From a virus: a stretch of 36,067 nucleotides of DNA. Below, in pieces: positions 1,032 to 36,067 of the stretch. The stretch covers positions 1 to 36,067 of IMG/VR virus record IMGVR_UViG_3300043446_001263, one strand, 5' to 3'. The notes under the pieces are model-generated. The model saw only the letters and a list, made by a program, of their open reading frames with translations. It searched no databases and was not told the DNA's origin. A program made the position numbers and the translations under genes. Each line of letters begins with the position of its first letter. Position 1 is the first letter of the stretch.

Positions 1032-2276
1032 TCAGAACGGTTCGACCGGGTCGATGGTCGGAGCCGGTCCATTCTTGGCGACCTGCTCGTCGTTGAGCAG
1101 CATCGTGATCGACCGGTCTTGGATGATGGCCTCCACCTTGGGCTGCTCCTGCGGGGAGAACATGGCCTTGAACATCCACAGAGCCGTGTCGACCCCGTAG
1201 ACCTCCACGTCCTCGCACAGGCGGCTGAGCGCCGACGTGCCGACCGGAGTCGTGATCGACCGACCACTGCGGGCCTCACGGAGTGCCTGACCCAGCAGGC
1301 GCACGCTGGCGCTCGGGATCAGTTTCTTCTCCACGGCCTCGTCGTAGCCCCACGGAATCCAGCGGAACCGGTTGGTGAACGCCTCGTTGAGGCTGCCAGC
1401 ACCCTTGTAGCCGGGGTTCATGGTGCCGACGATCCACAGGTCGTCGCTGGCGTTGACCACGTCGGGCATGAACACCTCGGTGCCCTCGTGTTCGAAGCGC
1501 ACCGCACGCTGACGGTTGACGAACGCACGGCGGTGGTCGGTCAGGGGATGGAGGGACGACGTGACCCGCTCGGGCATCATGTTGACCTCGTCAAGGTAGA
1601 GCACACCACCGGCTCGGGCTGCGAGATCGCAGACACCGGGGAGCCACACGAGGCGCTCCTGACCGTCGGGGGTCGTGAAGGCGGTGGGCTGACCGAACAG
1701 GTCGAAGTCGGTCACACCGTTCGACCCGGAGAGGGTGAACACGGGGAGCGGCTTGCCCGAAGCGGTGCGCTTACCGGCGAGCACTGCGAGCACCTGCACG
1801 AGCAGCGTCTTTCCGGCCTGCGTGTCACCGACGAGCAGCACGTTGTCCTTCTTGTCGTAGAACGACAGCAGGAAGTCCGTGTCGCTCTGACCGTTGGGGA
1901 CGTTACGGCTGACGTAGCCCTTGAGGATCGACGGGTCCGGTCGCCACGGGTCAAGGCGTGGATCGTTCACATCGGTGATGTTGCCGGGGATGACGATGCG
2001 CTCGTTGGCCTCGGTCGGGTGGGGGACGCTGTAGCCCTGAGGCGGCAGCGAGACCACGTTGCTGGGCTGAGCGTTGTAGGTCGACGGCGACTCCAGCAAA
2101 CGGGGGAGCAGGTAGACGTGCTCTCCGTTGAAGTCGACGGTGATCTTGCGACGGCGAACCATGTCGGTGTCGGGGAAGATGGTTGGGTCCACGACGGTCA
2201 CCGTGCGACCCTTCAACTTTCCACCGGTCACGACGTAGGTGTCACCGGGCTGCATCTTGCTGGTCTTGGTAGTCAT
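1032..2276 (-). CDS. MoxR/CobS-like AAA+ ATPase with N-terminal KOW-like domain
   Basis: A 414-residue AAA+ ATPase. Walker A is GDTQAGKT near residue 148, Walker B is VLYLDEVNMM near 226-232, and sensor/arginine-finger type segments follow (VGTMNPGYKGAGSLNEAFTNRF). This architecture is typical of the MoxR/CobS/dynein-related group (AAA_5). Residues about 8-65 (PGDTYVVTGGKLKGRTVTVV with KITVDFNGEHVYLLPRLLE) look like a KOW/SH3-like barrel fused to the front, which is not usual for MoxR. MoxR proteins work with VWA-domain partners, and one is encoded divergently at 2909-5005. The ATG at 2276 has the shared leader AGGAGCCGCCTT. The substrate of the complex is unknown. Confidence 0.88.
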   Translation of the reverse strand: MTTKTSKMQPGDTYVVTGGKLKGRTVTVVDPTIFPDTDMVRRRKITVDFNGEHVYLLPRLLESPSTYNAQPSNVVSLPPQGYSVPHPTEANERIVIPGNITDVNDPRLDPWRPDPSILKGYVSRNVPNGQSDTDFLLSFYDKKDNVLLVGDTQAGKTLLVQVLAVLAGKRTASGKPLPVFTLSGSNGVTDFDLFGQPTAFTTPDGQERLVWLPGVCDLAARAGGVLYLDEVNMMPERVTSSLHPLTDHRRAFVNRQRAVRFEHEGTEVFMPDVVNASDDLWIVGTMNPGYKGAGSLNEAFTNRFRWIPWGYDEAVEKKLIPSASVRLLGQALREARSGRSITTPVGTSALSRLCEDVEVYGVDTALWMFKAMFSPQEQPKVEAIIQDRSITMLLNDEQVAKNGPAPTIDPVEPF

Positions 2277-2842: not shown

Positions 2843-2889
2843 TTGCATCTACCTCAAGCATCCCGTATCCTTGCCTTGTCTGATCAACC
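2843..2889 (+). promoter_or_regulatory. Rightward promoter of the VWA gene with conserved start-site box
   Basis: -35 TTGCAT (2843-2848), 17-base spacer, -10 TATCCT (2866-2871), 7 bases, then TCTGATCAACC (2879-2889). The segment CAAGCATCCCGTATC and the TCTGATCAACC box are identical to the leftward MoxR promoter, whereas the sequences between them differ. The -35 starts one base after the upstream stop codon. Confidence 0.72.
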
Positions 2890-2896
2890 CACCCAC

Positions 2897-2908
2897 TGGA
2901 GCCGCCCT
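2897..2908 (+). promoter_or_regulatory. Shared extended ribosome-binding leader (copy 4, two changes)
   Basis: TGGAGCCGCCCT directly before the ATG at 2909. It differs from the other three copies at two positions and fixes the start of the VWA gene at 2909 rather than at the upstream in-frame ATG at 2843, which lies on the -35 box. Confidence 0.7.
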
Positions 2909-5005
2909 ATGACTACGACACCGAAGCCACGCAAACCACGCAAGAAGCAATGGGCAAGCGAGGTCGCTCGCCAAGCGCACAGCAACACCCGTCGTCGCCT
3001 TGCTCGTGAAGCCTCCGAGCGTGAGGCCCGACGGCTCGCAGATGCCCGTCATGAGATCGCCAGCGCTGCCCGTCGTGAGCGTGACCGTGAGACAAACCGC
3101 CGAACGAACATGGTGAGCAACGGCATGACGCCCCGACTCCGTGCGGTCATGAACTCATGGGGTATCAGCCTTCCCCTGTCTATCTCTCCGGCGCACAGCA
3201 TCAGCGCCTACACCGACTTCAAGTCGATCACGGTCAACTACGACCACCGCCTCACGTCGAAGAAGAACTACGGCGACAGCGTCGAAGACACGGTCATCTC
3301 GGACGAGGAACTCCGTCAGATCGCCGCAGAGACCCGTGGCCTCTTCTACCACGAGGTCGGCCACATCCTCTTCACGGTGCCGTTCTACGGACTGCTGACA
3401 GCAGCGTGGTCCGAGGGCTACGTCGTCCCGTCGACCATCGCTCAGCCCGCTGCCCTTGACTCCGAGGACACCCCGTTGTCGTGGGCGGGAGGCAACATTG
3501 GTCGCCTTCAGATGGCATGGAACCTGCTGGAGGATCAGCGCATGGAGGCTGCCCTCGTTGAGGAGTCTCCCCACATCTCCTCCTACCTCACCGTCCTCGT
3601 CATGCGGAACATGGTCTCAAGCGCCAACGGCGGCGGTCCCGCCTCGTGGGCACTGGCTGCTGGTCGGTACTACTTGCCCGACACGGTTCGTGCTTCCACC
3701 CGCACCCTGTGGGAATCCCCGGTGTGGACTGCCGACGATGTGGAGAAGACCATCGTCTCCTACATGGTCGCCACGACGGCAACCGACATGGTCAAAGCGG
3801 TCCTCCGCATGATGGACATCCTCGGTGACATGAGCGTCCGGCAGACCGACTCACACGGTTCGTTCGAACGGTCCTCCAACGCTGCCTCGGGTACCGAGGA
3901 GACCAAGCAGCGCATCGCTGACACCGGTCAGAAGACCCAGCAGTCGATCCCGGCGAAGAGCGACAGCACCGAGCCGGAGAACAGCGGCCAGCAGGGCAGC
4001 GGAAACGACGAGCAGGACGACGAAGGCGGCCAGTCCGGCGACCAGCCTCAGGGCCTGACCGAGGCTTCCTCTTCCTCCTCGTCGACTTCGATGAGTGCCG
4101 GTGGTGGCGACGATGACCAAGAGTCGTACTCCTCCTACGAGGACAAGTGGAAGGCTAGGAACGACATCCGAGAAGCGCTCCAAGACGCTCTTGAGGAACT
4201 CAAGGACGACGAAGCGGTGTCCGAAGACGTTCAGGCCATGAACGAGGCTCACGCCACCGACAGCGGGGCGCTTCCTCAGTGGGGACAGGTGTCCTCCAGC
4301 ACCGACGAGGAGGCCGCTTCCAAGGCCCTCGCCATCGTGGACGACATCGAACGGGCCTTCCTCCTCGCCACCGAAGACTGCGCTCCCCATTGGGAGACCG
4401 GCCAGCGGCGGGGCGTGCTGGACGTGCTTCGGTACAGCACCCGCCAGCCCGGTGACGTTGAGGTCTTCCGCAACTACACCGACGACGGTGACCCCGGACA
4501 TGACCTCGCCGTCTCCCTGTTCCTAGACATCTCGGGATCGATGATGGGTACCGGCGACGAACTCGGGGCCGCAGCGTGGGCCGTGAAGGCTGCCTGTGAC
4601 CGGCTCAGCATCTCCTGCGACGTGTCGCTCTTCAACGAGAACGGGTACCGGCTGTGGGAGGCTCAGGACTCCCCCGAGTACATCCCCTACGTCGGATCGG
4701 GCGGTGGTACCGACCCGACCACGGCGTTCAATTCGATCCTCTCCGAGGAGCGCCCTCAGAAGACCCACCTCGTCATCGTCATGACCGACGGTGTGTGGAA
4801 CCACGACGGCATCAAGGTGTCGAACTGGAAGCACTCCAACGTCTACTCGGTGCTGTTCTTCTACGACCGGTACTCGTCCGACTCCAAGGACCTCCAGCCC
4901 GACAACCAGTTGGCCTCCAAGCGTGGTGCCGACGAGGCGTACGCCATCGGTGACCTGCTCAACATCCCTCAAGCACTGGAGAACATCCTGATCAGCCTCG
5001 TCTGA
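2909..5005 (+). CDS. VWA-domain protein with HExxH metallopeptidase-like N-terminal half (MoxR partner)
   Basis: A 698-residue protein. Residues 1-75 are very basic and helical. Near 148-152 is HEVGH, in LFYHEVGHILFTVPF, a zincin-type HExxH motif. Residues about 360-420 are acidic and Ser/Gln/Gly-rich low complexity. The C-terminal third is a VWA domain with the MIDAS motif DISGS at 540-544, a Gly/Thr loop (GSGGGTDPTTAF) and MTDGVWN. The layout resembles the putative metallopeptidase plus VWA-like family (DUF2201) and the CobT-type partner of CobS/MoxR ATPases. The divergent MoxR gene under a matching promoter fits that pairing. Whether the HExxH site is catalytic is unknown. Confidence 0.85.
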   Translation: MTTTPKPRKPRKKQWASEVARQAHSNTRRRLAREASEREARRLADARHEIASAARRERDRETNRRTNMVSNGMTPRLRAVMNSWGISLPLSISPAHSISAYTDFKSITVNYDHRLTSKKNYGDSVEDTVISDEELRQIAAETRGLFYHEVGHILFTVPFYGLLTAAWSEGYVVPSTIAQPAALDSEDTPLSWAGGNIGRLQMAWNLLEDQRMEAALVEESPHISSYLTVLVMRNMVSSANGGGPASWALAAGRYYLPDTVRASTRTLWESPVWTADDVEKTIVSYMVATTATDMVKAVLRMMDILGDMSVRQTDSHGSFERSSNAASGTEETKQRIADTGQKTQQSIPAKSDSTEPENSGQQGSGNDEQDDEGGQSGDQPQGLTEASSSSSSTSMSAGGGDDDQESYSSYEDKWKARNDIREALQDALEELKDDEAVSEDVQAMNEAHATDSGALPQWGQVSSSTDEEAASKALAIVDDIERAFLLATEDCAPHWETGQRRGVLDVLRYSTRQPGDVEVFRNYTDDGDPGHDLAVSLFLDISGSMMGTGDELGAAAWAVKAACDRLSISCDVSLFNENGYRLWEAQDSPEYIPYVGSGGGTDPTTAFNSILSEERPQKTHLVIVMTDGVWNHDGIKVSNWKHSNVYSVLFFYDRYSSDSKDLQPDNQLASKRGADEAYAIGDLLNIPQALENILISLV

Positions 5006-5031: not shown

Positions 5032-5463
5032 ATGACTATCAACTACGCCAAACGGAACGGATTGCTTCCAAGCGCTTCCACACAGGCAGCGCTGGGGCTG
5101 GCCCAAGCGGACATCGCCTACAGGGTTGCCAAGGCTCAGGGCACTCAGGGGGTGCCCCCAGTAATCGCCGTCGACCACGCCTACCGGGCCTCGGTGGCGA
5201 TCCTGTTCTACCTGCTCTTCATCTTCCCGGTGATGATGTTCATCTCACTGTTCGTGTGGACATGGAACCCGATCATCATGCTGTGGAAGGCCGCTCAGGT
5301 AGGACTGGGCCTGCTGATCGGGCTACGCATGATCCGGTGGGTGAAAGAACCGGCCTCCAACAAACTGTCCTACGCATTCCCGACGTGGCTGCTCGTAGTT
5401 CTAGGAGCGTTCAGCATCTTCATGTTCTTCGTCTTCGCCATCGTGAAGATTCTCTCGGCCTAG
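5032..5463 (+). CDS. Membrane protein, about three transmembrane segments
   Basis: A 143-residue protein. After a soluble N-terminus of about 50 residues there are hydrophobic segments near 56-80 (SVAILFYLLFIFPVMMFISL), 85-103 (PIIMLWKAAQVGLGLLIGL) and 118-140 (FPTWLLVVLGAFSIFMFFVF). The ATG at 5032 is preceded by AGGAG at 5021-5025 with good spacing, better than the in-frame ATG at 5011. It lies 26 bases after the VWA gene and is probably cotranscribed with it, so a membrane anchor for that machine is possible but unproven. Its last 63 bases overlap the end of the leftward AP2 gene. Confidence 0.75.
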   Translation: MTINYAKRNGLLPSASTQAALGLAQADIAYRVAKAQGTQGVPPVIAVDHAYRASVAILFYLLFIFPVMMFISLFVWTWNPIIMLWKAAQVGLGLLIGLRMIRWVKEPASNKLSYAFPTWLLVVLGAFSIFMFFVFAIVKILSA

Positions 5464-5634
5464 AGGGAAGTTCAACCGAGCAGCATCGCCGTACAGAGAA
5501 AGCGCCTCCCGGTCATACGCTCGGGCGGCGCTTTCTTGCGTTGAATACGTGCCGAGATATCGACGCTTGCCGCCGTACTGAATGGCCGCCTGCCACCTGT
5601 TTCCCCACGACGTTAGGTAGACCCCACGATACAT
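5401..5634 (-). CDS. Stand-alone AP2/ERF-type DNA-binding domain protein
   Basis: A 77-residue protein that is almost entirely one AP2 domain: YRGVYLTSWGNRWQAA, YLGTYSTQESAARAYDREAL and the ending LNFP match the family consensus (RGV, W, LGT, EEAARAYD, LNFP) across residues 2-57. In phages AP2 domains usually accompany HNH homing endonucleases; here no nuclease domain is present. The 20-residue acidic tail is encoded across the 3' end of the opposing membrane-protein gene. RBS AGGA lies about 7 bases before the ATG. A strong hairpin (5497-5536) lies in the coding sequence. It could be a small regulator or the remnant of a homing element. Confidence 0.82.
   Translation of the reverse strand: MYRGVYLTSWGNRWQAAIQYGGKRRYLGTYSTQESAARAYDREALSLYGDAARLNFPLGRENLHDGEDEEHEDAERS
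5497..5536 (+). terminator. Terminator-like hairpin inside the AP2 gene
   Basis: AGAAAGCGCC (5497-5506) pairs with GGCGCTTTCT (5527-5536), and the stem continues after one mismatch with CCCG (5508-5511) against CGGG (5522-5525), leaving a 10-base loop. TTTCTT follows the GC core on the plus strand. It lies 34 bases past the end of the rightward membrane-protein gene and would end that transcript. The symmetric A/T flanks could also affect leftward AP2 transcription. Confidence 0.6.
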
Positions 5635-30659: not shown

Positions 30660-30876
30660 GATTATCCGTGTGCAACTTGTTTGCGTGATAGTCGATCACT
30701 GCATCACAGCCGTTCTTCACATCCATGTGGCGAAGAAGGCCACGGATGTGAGTGGTGAGAAAGGCTGCAAATTCATTGCGTCCCTCTTCGTCAGTCATGG
30801 TGTAGGAACGACCGACGAGGGTGTCCCACCGACGGTTGTTTACGTAGTCGTGTACTGCTTCAGCAAGAGCGTCCAT
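30649..30876 (-). CDS. Small hypothetical protein
   Basis: A 75-residue helical protein (DALAEAVHDYVNNRRWDTLVG, shown in part; later NEFAAFLTTHIRGLLRHM). The start at 30876 has GAGGAG 6 bases upstream, an excellent site; in-frame ATGs further up would overlap the deaminase gene by 59 bases or more. Unknown function. Confidence 0.65.
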   Translation of the reverse strand: MDALAEAVHDYVNNRRWDTLVGRSYTMTDEEGRNEFAAFLTTHIRGLLRHMDVKNGCDAVIDYHANKLHTDNREC

Positions 30877-31255
30877 TTTGTACTCCTCTAAAAGTTGTTG
30901 TTCCGTATGAGTTGTCATCGATTGTCCAAATTGCTTGTCGTACGCCTGATTCAATCAGTTGCTTCTGACATCGGTTGCAGGGCTTGGCTAGACCCAGTCT
31001 CCCGGTTCTGAGAACACGGGCCACGTAGATAGTGGAGCCGTGAGACCTCTTGACCCTGCGGAGCGCAACCATTTCTGCGTGGAAAGAGCACTCTTCAAAA
31101 GGTACCCCTTCTATGCTTGCTGAGTTTCTAAGGTCGTTAGAAGCGCCTGCAAGCATTCGCCCTCCACGTACAATCACAGCACCTACAGGCCAGCGCTCAT
31201 AGTTCGATCTAGTGGCGTAGTTCTCTGCCATCTTGAGGTACTTGTTATGTCTCAT
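30860..31255 (-). CDS. Cytidine/deoxycytidylate deaminase-like enzyme
   Basis: A 131-residue zinc deaminase. HAE at 59-61 (ECSFHAEMVALRRV) and PCNRC at 92-96 are the full zinc and catalytic motif; PVGAVIVRGGRMLAGASN is the usual substrate-side strand. dCMP deaminases feed dUMP for dTMP synthesis, but the family also acts on free nucleosides or RNA, so the substrate is not fixed. ATG 31255 lies 11 bases inside the upstream gene. Confidence 0.82.
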   Translation of the reverse strand: MRHNKYLKMAENYATRSNYERWPVGAVIVRGGRMLAGASNDLRNSASIEGVPFEECSFHAEMVALRRVKRSHGSTIYVARVLRTGRLGLAKPCNRCQKQLIESGVRQAIWTIDDNSYGTTTFRGVQNGRSC

Positions 31256-31475
31256 CAGGTACGTAGGTGGGGTACGGCACGGTATCGGGATGCCGTTTGA
31301 TGTAGATACCGGAAATCGTATGTCTACCACACAGGCAGCAGAGTTCAAGCGGGAATCCTCTATGAACAGTGGGGATGGAGTATGACACCGGGACGCTTTC
31401 CCCGTCGTAGGTCTCTTCCCATTCTGAGTTCTCTTCAACCCAACAAGGGTCGCATACCGGTTGGATAGTTTTCAT
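31245..31475 (-). CDS. Small zinc-ribbon protein
   Basis: A 76-residue protein with two CxxC pairs (C8/C11 in PVCDPCW; C46/C49 in ELCCLCGRHT) ending GIYIKRHPDTVPYP. This layout recurs in actinophage genomes as a conserved protein of unknown function. GGAGACTAA precedes the ATG, which overlaps the primase stop as ATGA. Confidence 0.72.
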   Translation of the reverse strand: MKTIQPVCDPCWVEENSEWEETYDGESVPVSYSIPTVHRGFPLELCCLCGRHTISGIYIKRHPDTVPYPTYVPDET

Positions 31476-32371
31476 TTAGTCTCCAAATTCAATGAAAGGC
31501 TACGTTTCCATGCTTCATAGAGGTCAGAGTCGGATTCAACGTCACCGGGATCTTTTGCGTCTAGATCACGGTAATTGAAATCAAACACCACACACCCCCT
31601 CTTCTCTAATGCTCTGTGCAGGGCCTCCTTCGCCCTGTGACCAGCAGCATCGTTATCCATAGCAGACACTACGTACCGAAAGTGTCTACCAAGGAGATCC
31701 ATTTGAGCAGTACTAATTGCGGCACCAAAACTAGACACAGCCGGAATTCCTACTCCATACAGCCGGACAGCATCAAGTGGTGATTCGACAATCGTGATCT
31801 TGCTCTCAAACTTAAACTTATGAAACCCGAACAGGGTGGTCGACTTTTCCATACCGACAGGGTGATTGATGACAATCCCCTTCTGACGGAATTGAAACCC
31901 CATGAGTTCGCCGTCGGGTGTCCTGATAGGTATCACCCACGTCTTGTTAGATGAGTCCCATTTTATTTCAAAGAAGTCAACTGCTTCCCTTCTCAGGTTT
32001 CTCCTAAGCATCAACTTTTCGGGAAGAGAAGAGTAGTTACCAAGGGACCACTCGCTGATGGTAGGTCCCGACGTGGCCTGCTGCTTGGGCTTGTCTACAG
32101 AAAGGTTCAAAGACTTCTTGGACAACTCCCACTCAAGATCATCAGGTACCTCTCCTACCAAGTCACGATAAAGACTTGTCAGAGTTCCCGCATATCCGCA
32201 CGAGAAGCAGTGGTGAACATACGTCTTTGAGTTTATTGACCAAGACGGATGAGCGTCTTCTTTGCCGGTCCTTTGCAAGTGCATAGGACATTTGCCCAGT
32301 ACCTCGTCTCCGCTTTCACGAAGTACCTCTACACCAATGGAGTAGAGGATGCTCTCTACATCAAGCGACAT
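31472..32371 (-). CDS. DNA primase (CHC2 zinc finger plus Toprim)
   Basis: A 299-residue primase. The zinc finger is CPMHLQ...HPSWSIN...HHCFSCGYAG (about 28-65). The Toprim domain carries TIVESPLDAVRLYG (E near 195) and SAMDNDAAGHRAKEAL (DxD near 240). It lacks the helicase-binding C-domain of bacterial DnaG. GGAGGACGAGG directly precedes ATG 32371. It should prime the phage fork with the DnaB helicase encoded just upstream. Confidence 0.9.
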   Translation of the reverse strand: MSLDVESILYSIGVEVLRESGDEVLGKCPMHLQRTGKEDAHPSWSINSKTYVHHCFSCGYAGTLTSLYRDLVGEVPDDLEWELSKKSLNLSVDKPKQQATSGPTISEWSLGNYSSLPEKLMLRRNLRREAVDFFEIKWDSSNKTWVIPIRTPDGELMGFQFRQKGIVINHPVGMEKSTTLFGFHKFKFESKITIVESPLDAVRLYGVGIPAVSSFGAAISTAQMDLLGRHFRYVVSAMDNDAAGHRAKEALHRALEKRGCVVFDFNYRDLDAKDPGDVESDSDLYEAWKRSLSLNLETK

Positions 32372-33692
32372 CCTCGTCCTCCTCATCCCAATGGCTATGA
32401 AGAGACGAAGGCTTCGGCTTACCGCTTGATGATGTGACTGGCATCTGATGGTTCAGCATGTTCTCGTACTTGGATTCATCAAGTTCTTCGATCATGCCCT
32501 GACCCCAGTCGAATTGAACCCGGGCCTCACCCTTGGGGGAAGAACGTGATGCGATGACTTTAAAGTTCGATACACCCATCAACTGCTCATGTGCTTCAAC
32601 GCCGAACACGATGTCTGAGTCTTGGGCAAACGAAGACGAGTACCCAATCGACTCCATCTTCAAGCCGCCCTTGGATCGGTACAACATTGCCTGAGTGGAA
32701 ATAACAATTGGGATTCTCAATGTCTGCGCTAAGCGTTTGAAACCTCTTGTGAGGCTAGTAAGCGCTTGTGGCGTCCCCTTGTCATTACCGGCCTCGTCAT
32801 CCATCAGGTACACACCGTCGACAATGACTAGTGAAGGCCTGTACTGCTGAATCTTTGCCTGAACTCCCGAAACGGTAATCGCACTACTCACGTCACTAGT
32901 GAACGTGAACCCGGCCATCTCTTTACGTAGGTCAAGAGCCTTCTTGATGCGTTTTTCTTCTACGGGGTCAAACGTGCCGGTAAGAATCTTTGTGAGACCT
33001 ACTCCTGAGATCAGAGAGATAAGTCGATCTTCCTGTTCTTCTGTACTCATCTCAAAGGTGACAAACAGGACGTGGTGACCGTCTCTATGAGCATTGAATG
33101 CCATCTTTAGAAGAACACTGGACTTACCCGCTTTTGGCGTACCAATCATCGTGATTAGTTGCTCAGGCTGGAGACCGCCAGTGAGACGGTCAATACCATC
33201 GAAGCCAGTAGGGATGCCCTTCAAGTATCCGGGGTTCGACTTCCTCATCATCAGTCGTTCCCAAATGCGATCACGACTCAAGTAGAAGTCAGTGTCACGA
33301 CCTTGGGAAATCTCATGAGCGGCCTTCGCCATACCGTCTCTAAGGATGGCTTCAAGTTCATCACCGATGTCAGGACCCTCATCGTCATTGACACGGTCGA
33401 TGTATTCCTTGACGTACGTAGTGAGGATTACCTTCTTACGGTCCTGCTTCAGTTGGTGAAGGTAGTACGTGACAGGCTCGGGGTAGGAGTTGAACTTGTA
33501 AGTCGGATAAGCCGCATGTACAGCCTCTTTAGATGGCGGCTTGCCATATGACTTGTAGTGCTCGGTGATAAGACGCCACACCTTGAGGTGTGTCTCATCA
33601 GGAAAGAAGTCGTCAGTGATCTTCGACTCAATGAACGGTAGTAATGAGTCTTCCTCAACGATCTTGGAAATGCATGCGTTCTGAGTATCCAC
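32361..33692 (-). CDS. dnaB: DnaB-type replicative helicase
   Basis: A 443-residue helicase. A DnaB-like N-terminal domain is followed by the RecA-fold core with PTGFDGIDRLTGGLQPEQL, Walker A GTPKAGKSS (near 183), VTFEMSTEE, VIVDGVYLM (Walker B) and SYSSSFAQDSDIVFGVE as DnaB motifs. The last 30 residues are Ser/Pro-rich and acidic. The GTG start overlaps the upstream stop as TAGTG. Confidence 0.92.
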   Translation of the reverse strand: MDTQNACISKIVEEDSLLPFIESKITDDFFPDETHLKVWRLITEHYKSYGKPPSKEAVHAAYPTYKFNSYPEPVTYYLHQLKQDRKKVILTTYVKEYIDRVNDDEGPDIGDELEAILRDGMAKAAHEISQGRDTDFYLSRDRIWERLMMRKSNPGYLKGIPTGFDGIDRLTGGLQPEQLITMIGTPKAGKSSVLLKMAFNAHRDGHHVLFVTFEMSTEEQEDRLISLISGVGLTKILTGTFDPVEEKRIKKALDLRKEMAGFTFTSDVSSAITVSGVQAKIQQYRPSLVIVDGVYLMDDEAGNDKGTPQALTSLTRGFKRLAQTLRIPIVISTQAMLYRSKGGLKMESIGYSSSFAQDSDIVFGVEAHEQLMGVSNFKVIASRSSPKGEARVQFDWGQGMIEELDESKYENMLNHQMPVTSSSGKPKPSSLHSHWDEEDEDVA

Positions 33693-34126
33693 TAGAACAG
33701 CCCGCCAAACTGCGTCTCATACGCACGGATTCCGTAACGATCAAGCCTCACTGGTTCTGAGTCAACAACGTGATGCACGTTCGGCCTCCACGACAATGAC
33801 TCGCAGAAGATATCAAACGCACAGTACTCGCACGAGGAGACACGAACTTCGTACTTGTCCAACCAATCGGCAGCCATGTCTCCTACCTCGGGAGACAGGA
33901 ACGTGACAACGTCCACCGGAAGGCTCATGCGGTAAGCCTTGTCATTGATGATCTTGATGGCGTTCTTGCTCCAACCCCACTGGTCAGCAGGAAGCCATTC
34001 AACGTCCTTGTTACGACCAAACAGCCCTGATCGATTGGTCACGGGTGGAGGAACCTGAGCGAGTATTCCTTCCAGCACAACAACGATTCGGTTGTCTATC
34101 CATGCTGCAATATCCCCCTTTTCCAT
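33692..34126 (-). CDS. Cysteine-containing hypothetical protein
   Basis: A 144-residue protein with a CEYCAFDIFC cluster near residues 98-108 and an Arg/Tyr-rich end. It lies between the DnaC-like loader and DnaB, so a role in helicase loading is possible. The ATG at 34126 overlaps the loader stop as TGATG. I do not recognise the family. Confidence 0.68.
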   Translation of the reverse strand: MEKGDIAAWIDNRIVVVLEGILAQVPPPVTNRSGLFGRNKDVEWLPADQWGWSKNAIKIINDKAYRMSLPVDVVTFLSPEVGDMAADWLDKYEVRVSSCEYCAFDIFCESLSWRPNVHHVVDSEPVRLDRYGIRAYETQFGGLF

Positions 34127-34698
34127 CACCCGTTCCTAACGTCAAGACGAACAACCATGCTGTTTCGTTCTACCACAGATTTGAACCCGCTAGGCAAGTT
34201 ATCCCACAAGCCTGTCTGACACGACACAACTGTCGGTAGCGATTTGGATTCACGTAAGCGGAGAAGGTTCTCAACTTCGTAGGTATGCATCGGTGTGTAA
34301 CCACGACCTACGTCATCAAGAAACAGGAACGGCGACTCTTTCATGTTCCAAAACACACGCTCCCATTCCGTGTACTCCTTCCATAGAGCATCGTCACGGG
34401 AATACTTCTGAGTCATCTCCTCCATGCGCCAAAGGTTGCGAAGATCAGACAAGTAGTCGTACTCAGTCCAGTAGAACATCTCTACCGTGTGAACTCGGTG
34501 TATCTCTTTCAGTACTGAGATACCGGTGGTCGTCTTCCCGCATCCGGCAGCACCAATGAAGAGAAGACCTACACCTCGCTGCCAACCAGCGCTAAGGAGA
34601 TATTCGTTCAGTAGATCGTTGTCGTAAACGTCGACATTCGATGAAACAGACGGAATGTTTGATCCCGGAACAAACTGGTTCTCCCCCGACCTGATCAT
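34126..34698 (-). CDS. DnaC/IstB-like AAA+ helicase loader
   Basis: A 190-residue ATPase. Walker A GAAGCGKT (49-56) and Walker B FLFLDDVGRG (near 125) with a sensor region VVSCQTGLWDN. Size, motifs and position before DnaB match DnaC-type loaders, which place DnaB on melted origin DNA. ATG 34698 overlaps the upstream small gene as ATGA. Confidence 0.82.
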   Translation of the reverse strand: MIRSGENQFVPGSNIPSVSSNVDVYDNDLLNEYLLSAGWQRGVGLLFIGAAGCGKTTTGISVLKEIHRVHTVEMFYWTEYDYLSDLRNLWRMEEMTQKYSRDDALWKEYTEWERVFWNMKESPFLFLDDVGRGYTPMHTYEVENLLRLRESKSLPTVVSCQTGLWDNLPSGFKSVVERNSMVVRLDVRNG

Positions 34699-34871
34699 TC
34701 GTCTTCTGACTTCTTCGTGATGAGTTCAATCGCCAACTGAAGAGCGATCTCCAAACTGATGATCTCGTCTGCGGCCATGTGAAGTAGACAGCACTCATCC
34801 CCCTGAGGATGATCAGAGTCTGCTTGGTAGCGGATTCGTTCCAACAGGTCCATCATCTTCCCGTCAATCAT
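34695..34871 (-). CDS. Small helical protein (58 residues)
   Basis: Frame ATG 34871 to TGA 34695. Both ends are ATGA overlaps with neighbours, strong evidence for a real gene. The product (MMDLLERIRYQADSDH, later HMAADEIISLEIALQLAIEL) has the same LL.RI/AA.EI.xL plan as the 18625 and 21244 proteins. Unknown function. Confidence 0.72.
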   Translation of the reverse strand: MIDGKMMDLLERIRYQADSDHPQGDECCLLHMAADEIISLEIALQLAIELITKKSEDE

Positions 34872-35893
34872 CGTTCCATCCGTTCCTTGAAGCGTCGAAG
34901 TTCTTCTTTGTTGTCTACCACAACTGAGCGGTCAGTTGTTTGAGTGGAGATCTTGTACAGGCGTCCACGGTTGTACCAAAAGTCCTTCCACAGTTCATCC
35001 GACTTGAGGGGGATCTGACCGCCGTCGACCATTCGGAAAAAGACATCAATCATGGTTTCGATCTCCTTCTCGCTGTGCTGGGAAAGAAGAGCCTTCATAC
35101 GAGCCTGAAACACTTTCTGAACAGACCATGGAACAGCGAGGTTGAGGCGGGTCTCCCGAGACTGCATCCATTTCTTCTCAAAGTGGATAGTCAACCTCAT
35201 GTTGGGTCCGTACGAGGGGGCGGGCTTCTTCTTCACTTCCTTGGGCACATCGAAGTCGTCTTTGTCCTTCGAAGCACTCCATTCGTCTTCGTATTTCATG
35301 TCATCCTTTCTAGGAACGACCGAAGGTCGTGACCTATCCGTAAGGAGATGGGTATCCTCTCGGGTATATACATGGGTATGTAGTGCAAAAGTGCTGGTCA
35401 GAGCGTTGTCAATGTGACTATTTGTCACATCGATGTGACCACCTGTCACATGGTTGTGACTATTTGTCACATTTTCTACCTCATCGGAGATCTCTTCCAG
35501 CGTGTTGGGAACCCGCATGTAGACCATCTCGTGACGGTCTTGGTACCACTGCTGGCACTCCTCCATGACGTGTTCCGGTATTCCGTAACCCTTGACATTA
35601 GAGAACCTCTCGTCCACCGAGCCGCTCACAGGAACGATCAGTCCCGCTTTCCTCAGTCGGGAAAGAGTCTTTCTCAGGCTTGAATGAGACATCATCATTA
35701 TGGCGGCCCACCATTCCTGCCCGTATTTGGGAAACCATGCGAAGGCCAACTCCGGCTCATTGGTTTTCCCTCTGAGAGCAATAAACGAGAGCGTCTGTAG
35801 TTCACTAGAACTCAACCCGTGTTGCTGCGCCCACCCAAACGACAGCGCTCTCGTTAGATCCATCGTTCGGTATGACGGTTCTTGTCGTGCCAT
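34868..35893 (-). CDS. Putative replication initiator with winged-helix N-terminus
   Basis: A 341-residue protein. Residues 10-110 look like a winged helix: LSSSELQTLSFIALRG, HSSLRKTLSRLRKAGLIVPV with the recognition helix and wing. A linker (about 145-195) is encoded by the 21-bp iteron array and carries three heptads of VTxxHx type. The C-terminal 150 residues are basic and helical. Initiators of the lambda O type have the same order: DNA-binding N-domain, linker encoding the origin, helicase-recruiting C-domain, followed by the loader gene. ATG 35893 has AGGAG 7 bases upstream; a longer GTG-started frame is less likely. Confidence 0.7.
   Translation of the reverse strand: MARQEPSYRTMDLTRALSFGWAQQHGLSSSELQTLSFIALRGKTNEPELAFAWFPKYGQEWWAAIMMMSHSSLRKTLSRLRKAGLIVPVSGSVDERFSNVKGYGIPEHVMEECQQWYQDRHEMVYMRVPNTLEEISDEVENVTNSHNHVTGGHIDVTNSHIDNALTSTFALHTHVYTREDTHLLTDRSRPSVVPRKDDMKYEDEWSASKDKDDFDVPKEVKKKPAPSYGPNMRLTIHFEKKWMQSRETRLNLAVPWSVQKVFQARMKALLSQHSEKEIETMIDVFFRMVDGGQIPLKSDELWKDFWYNRGRLYKISTQTTDRSVVVDNKEELRRFKERMER
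35413..35473. repeat. Three 21-bp phased palindromic iterons; candidate replication origin
   Basis: ATGTGACTATTTGTCACAT (35413-35431), ATGTGACCACCTGTCACAT (35434-35452) and TTGTGACTATTTGTCACAT (35455-35473). The start-to-start distance is exactly 21 bases, two helical turns. The arms GTGAC and GTCAC are identical in all three. They lie in the linker of the putative initiator gene. The encoded heptads use identical codons for Val, Thr and His, so the DNA as well as the peptide appears to be conserved. Confidence 0.8.
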
Positions 35894-36067
35894 GAGTACT
35901 CCTGTCGATGAGCGGGGCGAGAAGTTAACCACAGGATTGTCCTCGTGTCACTAGCGCATCCTTGTGGTAAGATTTACTCTCAGATTTAGTTATAGTCGCC
36001 GTTCGGGTGGTAGGACCTGTAGACGTTGCGGACTGTCTATTCTGACCCGCAGACCCCCCGCCGCTAT
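35894..36067. other. Non-coding upstream region at the window end
   Basis: There is no credible gene in these 174 bases. The part before the initiator gene should hold the leftward promoter of the replication operon; GTGACA and TTAACT with a 17-base spacer is a weak candidate. The right end (36026-36052) can fold TGCGG against CCGCA. The region is cut by the window edge. Confidence 0.5.
35945..35973 (+). promoter_or_regulatory. Possible rightward promoter leaving the window
   Basis: GTGTCA (35945-35950), 17-base spacer, extended -10 TGGTAAGAT with TAAGAT at 35968-35973. Four of six bases match consensus in each box. It would drive a rightward gene beyond the window end. Confidence 0.35.

Follow-up and report, generated by a model that had tools for sequence, protein, structure and literature searches.

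Where does a phage that encodes its own putative initiator, helicase loader and replicative helicase begin to copy its DNA? The window, here the entire 36,067-base virus record IMGVR_UViG_3300043446_001263 (possibly a fragment), raises this question through three regularly spaced palindromes that lie inside the gene of the putative initiator. The answer favored below, with a probability of about 85% and from the evidence of sequence, is that positions 35316-35472 form the phage replication origin, or part of it, within the linker-coding part of the gene for its own initiator. The gene and the repeats are arranged as follows.

34868-35893, minus strand: putative initiator, 341 aa, with a winged-helix N-domain, a disordered linker and a helical C-domain (all predicted)
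35454-35472, minus strand: iteron 1 (in the sense of the gene), ATGTGAC-N5-GTCACAT with one outer mismatch
35433-35451, minus strand: iteron 2, ATGTGAC-N5-GTCACAT
35412-35430, minus strand: iteron 3 (in the sense of the gene), ATGTGAC-N5-GTCACAT, closest to the second module described below

The three copies of ATGTGAC-N5-GTCACAT occupy 35412-35472 at a pitch of exactly 21 and 21 bp, within the linker-coding part of the gene and more than 400 bp inside it. An earlier note on this DNA had placed the array at 35413-35473; the array is real but lies one base to the left, and the exact 21-bp interval it gave is borne out by all three copies. The same note described 19-bp palindromes of GTGAC, five bases and GTCAC. 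This core measures only 15 bp, and it is with the AT flanks that the palindrome reaches 19 bp; two of the three copies are then perfect, and the other is mismatched only at its outermost base. Its statement that the codons are the same across copies holds for GTG, ACA and CAC, which are constant, but not for the two spacer codons (AAT AGT, GGT GGT and AAT AGT in the three copies) or for the codon after CAC. The whole window contains three exact matches to the core, all of them in the array. A role of DnaA was considered and rejected, as only 10 sites resemble its box at up to one mismatch where chance would give 19.8.

The relatives of the initiator start at an ATG equivalent to that at 35893, and a GTG at 35932 is an alternative open start in the window. 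The protein divides into the N-domain (residues ~9-127), the linker (~136-221) and the C-domain (~230-317). In a full-length model (mean pLDDT 61) the blocks of the N-domain score 45-84 and those of the C-domain 64-92, and the linker, below 50 at 136-221, is predicted to be disordered. The N-domain model resembles MarR-type regulators; its best match among known structures is 2d1h_A (Z 9.0, rmsd 5.4, 102 residues aligned), and the scores lie within the range expected of common folds. The Pfam family MarR_2 matches the window initiator at E 0.0056 and 17.3 bits, under its curated cut-off of 27, and is matched in one of the six members of the initiator family. Modeled alone, the C-domain is predicted confidently (mean pLDDT 83); nothing exceeds Z 4.4 among the 83 PDB chains aligned with it, where no known replication fold stood out, and the viral structure library yields no match at E 0.001. 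The initiator profile likewise gives no match to PDB sequences at E 1. Five full-length matches to viral structures at E ≤0.001 (two named helix-turn-helix, three nameless) were set aside at TM 0.18-0.23. A disordered linker is where an origin would be expected if the constraint on the DNA is to cost the protein little.

Relatives were collected by five IMG/VR scans with the initiator, DnaB and loader, which yielded six relative contigs. The initiators of L001 and L002 are identical, so that five distinct relatives are considered and L002 enters contig-level counts only; L004 and L005 (the window itself) and L006-L008 and L012-L019 (the same six contigs again) are outside all counts. Identity to the window initiator is 70% in L001, 67% in L003, 60% in L011, 41% in L010 and 40% in L009. 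Two further contig scans gave 19 and 68 candidate stretches with no relatives among them, and a tblastn search of 50,697 phage records with the initiator was also negative at E 0.01. For DnaB, the Streptomyces phages pSt2308 and BRock are among the closest in the phage collection (35.0% and 33.3% identity); each has one gene of similar size upstream of the loader, which proved no relative by hhalign and enters no count. Within the partial coverage of the literature, no paper on this phage group was recognized.

Alignment of the homologues, which the earlier note had named beforehand as a check, reveals that the array persists in all five distinct relatives while both peptide and motif change: each has three palindromes in this linker, 21 bp apart, in different letters. 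That note had named as counter-evidence relatives without repeats or with only the peptide conserved, and the opposite is found in each of the five, which supports its reading of the array. The half-sites are TGTGAC (window and L001), TGTGA (L011), ACGATTC (L009) and TTGTCCT (L010, which has an extra fourth palindrome with two mismatches); in L003 each of the three copies pairs a TGTGCC half-site with a TGTGAC one, a single change that is present in all three at once. Over 19 bp, the mean identity of copies within a phage is 0.86 in the window, 0.93 in L001, 1.00 in L003, 0.96 in L009, 1.00 in L010 and 0.75 in L011, compared with 0.28 to 0.83 between phages; the exception is L011, whose own copies are 0.75 alike and 0.76 alike to those of the window. 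Each phage's motif, at up to one mismatch, is confined to its array (7/7 contigs). The predicted recognition helix comprises residues 70-82 of the model, and the stretch around it is near-identical in the window, L001 and L003 and different in L011, L009 and L010. The recognition-helix region thus appears to vary in step with the half-sites, a correlation across six sequences.

The genes downstream of the initiator, all on the same strand, encode a replication apparatus.

34126-34698, minus strand: DnaC-like helicase loader, an AAA ATPase (phrog_50, E 1.7e-9)
33692-34129, minus strand: 145-aa protein between loader and DnaB, with no family match and a conserved position
32361-33692, minus strand: DnaB-like replicative helicase (PF03796, E 1.9e-27)
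31472-32386, minus strand: DNA primase (Toprim, zinc finger), assigned by family matches

Loader and DnaB had been said to follow the initiator, which is correct, with the 145-aa gene sitting between the two; the primase comes after them, and Pol I and RecA homologues lie farther on. Loader and DnaB are downstream of the initiator in the window and in every relative read, the order of initiator, loader, a 144-aa gene and DnaB is identical in 5/5 distinct relatives, and the primase is also beside DnaB in L001 and L003, the two read for it. Neither Pfam nor PHROG has a family that the 145-aa protein matches at E 0.1. Its counterparts in L001 and L003 share 74-76% identity with it, and it holds the same position in the relatives read; it is possibly an unrecognized replication factor. 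Other genes of the window include one for a cytidine/deoxycytidylate deaminase-type protein (30860-31438, minus strand, E 1.6e-14). Toward the other end, an AAA_5 ATPase (1032-2276, minus strand, E 6.9e-14) is next to a 720-aa protein (2843-5005, plus strand), in which motifs resembling HExxH and the DISGS of VWA are visible by eye and for which Pfam gives no match at E 0.01 over the residues from 2912 on; the two are presumably a MoxR/VWA pair. A 77-aa ORF at 5401-5634 (minus strand), which overlaps an ORF on the opposite strand, matches the AP2 domain just below the cut-off (32.7 vs 33.3 bits).

Two further elements follow the array in the sense of the gene; the first of them goes unmentioned in the earlier note.

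35338-35383, minus strand: second module, three ATACCC copies with a 12-bp period and then TTACGG, with high synonymous-codon identity in four sequences
35316-35330, minus strand: short inverted repeat ACGACC-TTC-GGTCGT, with weak evidence of conservation

The second module reads TACATACCC...ATACCC...ATACCC...TTACGG. The distance from its first ATACC to the center of the last iteron is 42 bp in the window, L001, L003 and L011 and 43 bp in L009 and L010, that is, two array periods in 6/6 genes, and it is kept although the iterons differ. The module scores 18/18 in the window, 17 in L011, 16 in L001 and L003, 13 in L009 (in another register) and 11 in L010; it is degenerate in the last two, and in L009 it is read in another frame. 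When the peptide is fixed and synonymous codons are redrawn, the score is reached per 1000 resamples in 2 (window), 9 (L011), 26 (L010), 29 (L001), 67 (L009, other register) and 89 (L003). The module is not AT-rich, and no AT-rich opening region follows the array in any of the six genes (AT 0.38-0.62 for 40-bp stretches sampled up to 40 bp on). It is conceivable, though doubtful, that the second module replaces such a region as an origin element of a novel kind: a sequence-specific site of opening or helicase loading, whose reader (the C-domain, the loader or a host factor) would stay constant while the iterons change. If so, recognition helix and array would form a single cassette within one gene and change their specificity jointly.

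The inverted repeat has equivalents in L001, L003 and L011. As a third conserved element it was rejected, because comparable stems arise in 30-180 of 2000 resamples outside L010 and it is absent from L009, where no stem of at least 5 bp is present. In detail, the stems of 6, 7, 7 and 6 bp are matched within the same 60 bp in 116 (window), 44 (L001), 30 (L003) and 180 (L011) of 2000 resamples. The equivalent in L010 is far stronger: overlapping perfect hairpins with 11- and 10-bp stems lie at 4496-4538, just past the array in the initiator gene, and a stem of 11 is reached in 0/2000 peptide-fixed resamples. The flanking DNA also folds into a TACAT/ATGTA mini-hairpin in the window, L001, L003 and L009; with z from -2.38 to 0.07 over the six genes and -2.84 in lambda, folding of the flank was not used as evidence.

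Could the array instead be an operator, through which a winged-helix transcription regulator controls its own operon or an internal promoter, with the origin elsewhere? The likeness of the N-domain model to MarR-type regulators would suit this role, and initiators often repress their own genes. However, the array lies far inside the gene, and a search confined to sigma-70-like promoters found none in 34800-36067. Since the motif recurs nowhere else in the seven contigs at up to one mismatch, there is no second operator, for example at the start of the operon. The fixed distance of the second module, together with the loader, DnaB and primase that follow, argues in the same direction, and an operator with the origin elsewhere is unlikely. 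The roles of operator and origin are not exclusive.

Iteron arrays also act as centromeres and packaging sites, and the array might serve partition, packaging or another structural function of the DNA, its place in the initiator gene being accidental. Against such an accident, the adjoining genes are replication genes and the array-bearing gene itself encodes a fold of the DNA-binding type, which makes this explanation improbable.

A different possibility is that the repeats serve the protein as a repeated heptapeptide and that the repetition of the DNA is a by-product. The 21-bp unit does correspond to whole codons, and the window peptide is histidine-rich. Nevertheless, the peptides of the relatives (VPSGHID, VKYSHTD, NDSDGIV and PQDNTVC) share no common chemistry and fall in the part of the protein predicted to be disordered. 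Neither do the palindromes follow from the peptides. The center of the L010 palindrome is in another codon phase, and the second module is in a changed frame in L009. With the peptide fixed, the palindrome score at the array site is reached in 0/2000 resamples for the window, L001, L009 and L011 and in 1/2000 for L003 and L010; when the entire gene is scanned, L003 reaches it in 6/300 and the other five genes in 0/300. Copy-to-copy identity is reached per 5000 resamples in none (window, L003, L010), one (L001, L009) or three (L011). As the period and arm offsets were fixed after viewing the window, the independent tests are those on the relatives.

Codon usage points the same way. In the window, L001, L003 and L011, the codons of shared residues are identical at 0.84-0.95 in sliding windows within residues 137-191, compared with ~0.40-0.69 in windows clear of this peak and of the second one listed below, barring one window of 6 codon pairs. 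Fisher tests that compare residues 139-190 with the rest, one for each of the six pairs of these four closer sequences, give p 1.5e-3 to 8.2e-6; the pairs have common ancestry and are not independent, and the residue range, like the array geometry and the ATACCC motif, was picked after reading the alignments. This conservation spans the array and continues beyond it, into the second module. The four other pairs with L010 have a weaker synonymous excess (p 0.0042-0.068), and the five pairs with L009, in which few residues are shared, have none (p 0.63-0.95). The stretch TACATACCCATGTA is common to L009 and the window but in different frames (TYPC vs LHTHV), and BLAST recovers it as DNA at E 1.5e-7; a DNA search with this region of the window matched 5/6 relative records, with no match in G005, the record of L010. 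A further peak lies upstream in the gene.

35540-35620, minus strand: second synonymous-conservation peak, codons 92-118, with windows up to 0.87 and p 0.0023 to 0.17 over six pairs

No repeat or motif accounts for this peak (codons ~92-118), which may or may not be part of the origin. The changed letters on a kept array, the resampling, the codon conservation and the frame shift in L009 together indicate that the DNA, not the peptide, is under selection. From these comparisons a DNA-level function of the array region is close to certain, and a purely peptide role is highly improbable. Neutral tandem duplication by replication slippage would account for the L003 and L010 copies, identical over 19 bp like fresh duplications, but the same pitch and place in 6/6 genes, with different letters that are palindromic each time, are unexpected for neutral copies, and this explanation is scarcely credible.

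If the region is an origin, its anatomy suggests how it would operate. The winged-helix N-domain would bind each palindrome as a dimer, and the 21-bp pitch, equal to two helical turns, would set three dimers on one face of the DNA. The resulting initiator complex may then open or distort the DNA at the second module, 42-43 bp from the center of the last iteron. By analogy with lambda O-P-DnaB and SPP1 gp38-gp39-gp40, the helical C-domain would recruit the DnaC-like loader and DnaB, and then the primase. GC skew offers weak support for an origin here: it is more positive to the right of the initiator than to the left in 6/6 relative contigs (z 1.1-2.7), a count in which the contigs of L001 and L002 are near kin. 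In one contig (G004) nearly all genes are on one strand on both sides of the initiator. Five contigs have their cumulative skew minimum at a distance of 4 to 21 kb from the initiator and G002 has it at its far end; the window extends only 174 bp to the right of the initiator.

With gene and site on one piece of DNA, each phage would offer an initiator already paired with its origin. Since five types of half-site occur on a single geometry, how the two change specificity together could be tested by swapping N-domains and arrays.

Three known systems come closest. DnaD N-domains align with the N-domain model (2v79_B, Z 7.8, rmsd 3.5, 94 residues; 2vn2_C, Z 7.9, rmsd 8.3, 95 residues), at scores that many unrelated winged helices equal; the PHROG DnaD-like loader family gives a weak match in 2/6 members (best E 0.032), and the C-domain of the model has no clear match (best PDB Z 4.4). 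In phage SPP1, gene 38 contains oriL and encodes a protein that acts together with the loader gp39 and the helicase gp40 (PMC6316719). SPP1 is thus like the window, as read here, in having a repeat-bearing origin inside the initiator gene and a phage-coded loader and DnaB-family helicase (PMC6316719). It differs in its second origin, oriR, and its AT-rich unwinding element (PMC6316719), whereas here there is one array per contig.

The layout had been called lambda-O-like, and the lambda record agrees, with iterons in the middle of gene O and the loading gene downstream. As in the window, the palindromic iterons of lambda are ~19 bp long and sit midway in the initiator gene (PMC7466680), and the helicase-loading gene comes next downstream; another source describes the iterons as four, of 18 bp each, with an attached AT-rich sequence of 38 bp (PMC3349717). 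The four lambda iterons are spaced at 20, 24 and 23, compared with exactly 21 in the window, and AT is 0.78-0.80 over the 40 bp directly after the lambda array, whereas the window and its relatives have no AT-rich stretch. Past that stretch lambda has an inverted repeat with 12-nt arms, 92% complementary, and the window likewise has one past its array. Lambda relies on host DnaB (PMC3640518), and the phage of the window encodes its own DnaB and primase. Alignment of the six-member profile with lambda O by hhalign gives a probability of 0.1% at E 0.6, and, within what HMMER's filters let through, the Pfam matches at E up to 5 include no phage O family for any of the six members. The layout is best read as that of the lambda ori in gene O and of SPP1 oriL in gene 38. 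It would extend the placement of an origin within the initiator gene to phages that lack an AT-rich region and in which no relation to lambda O can be detected from sequence; a search for AT-rich intergenic repeats would miss such origins.
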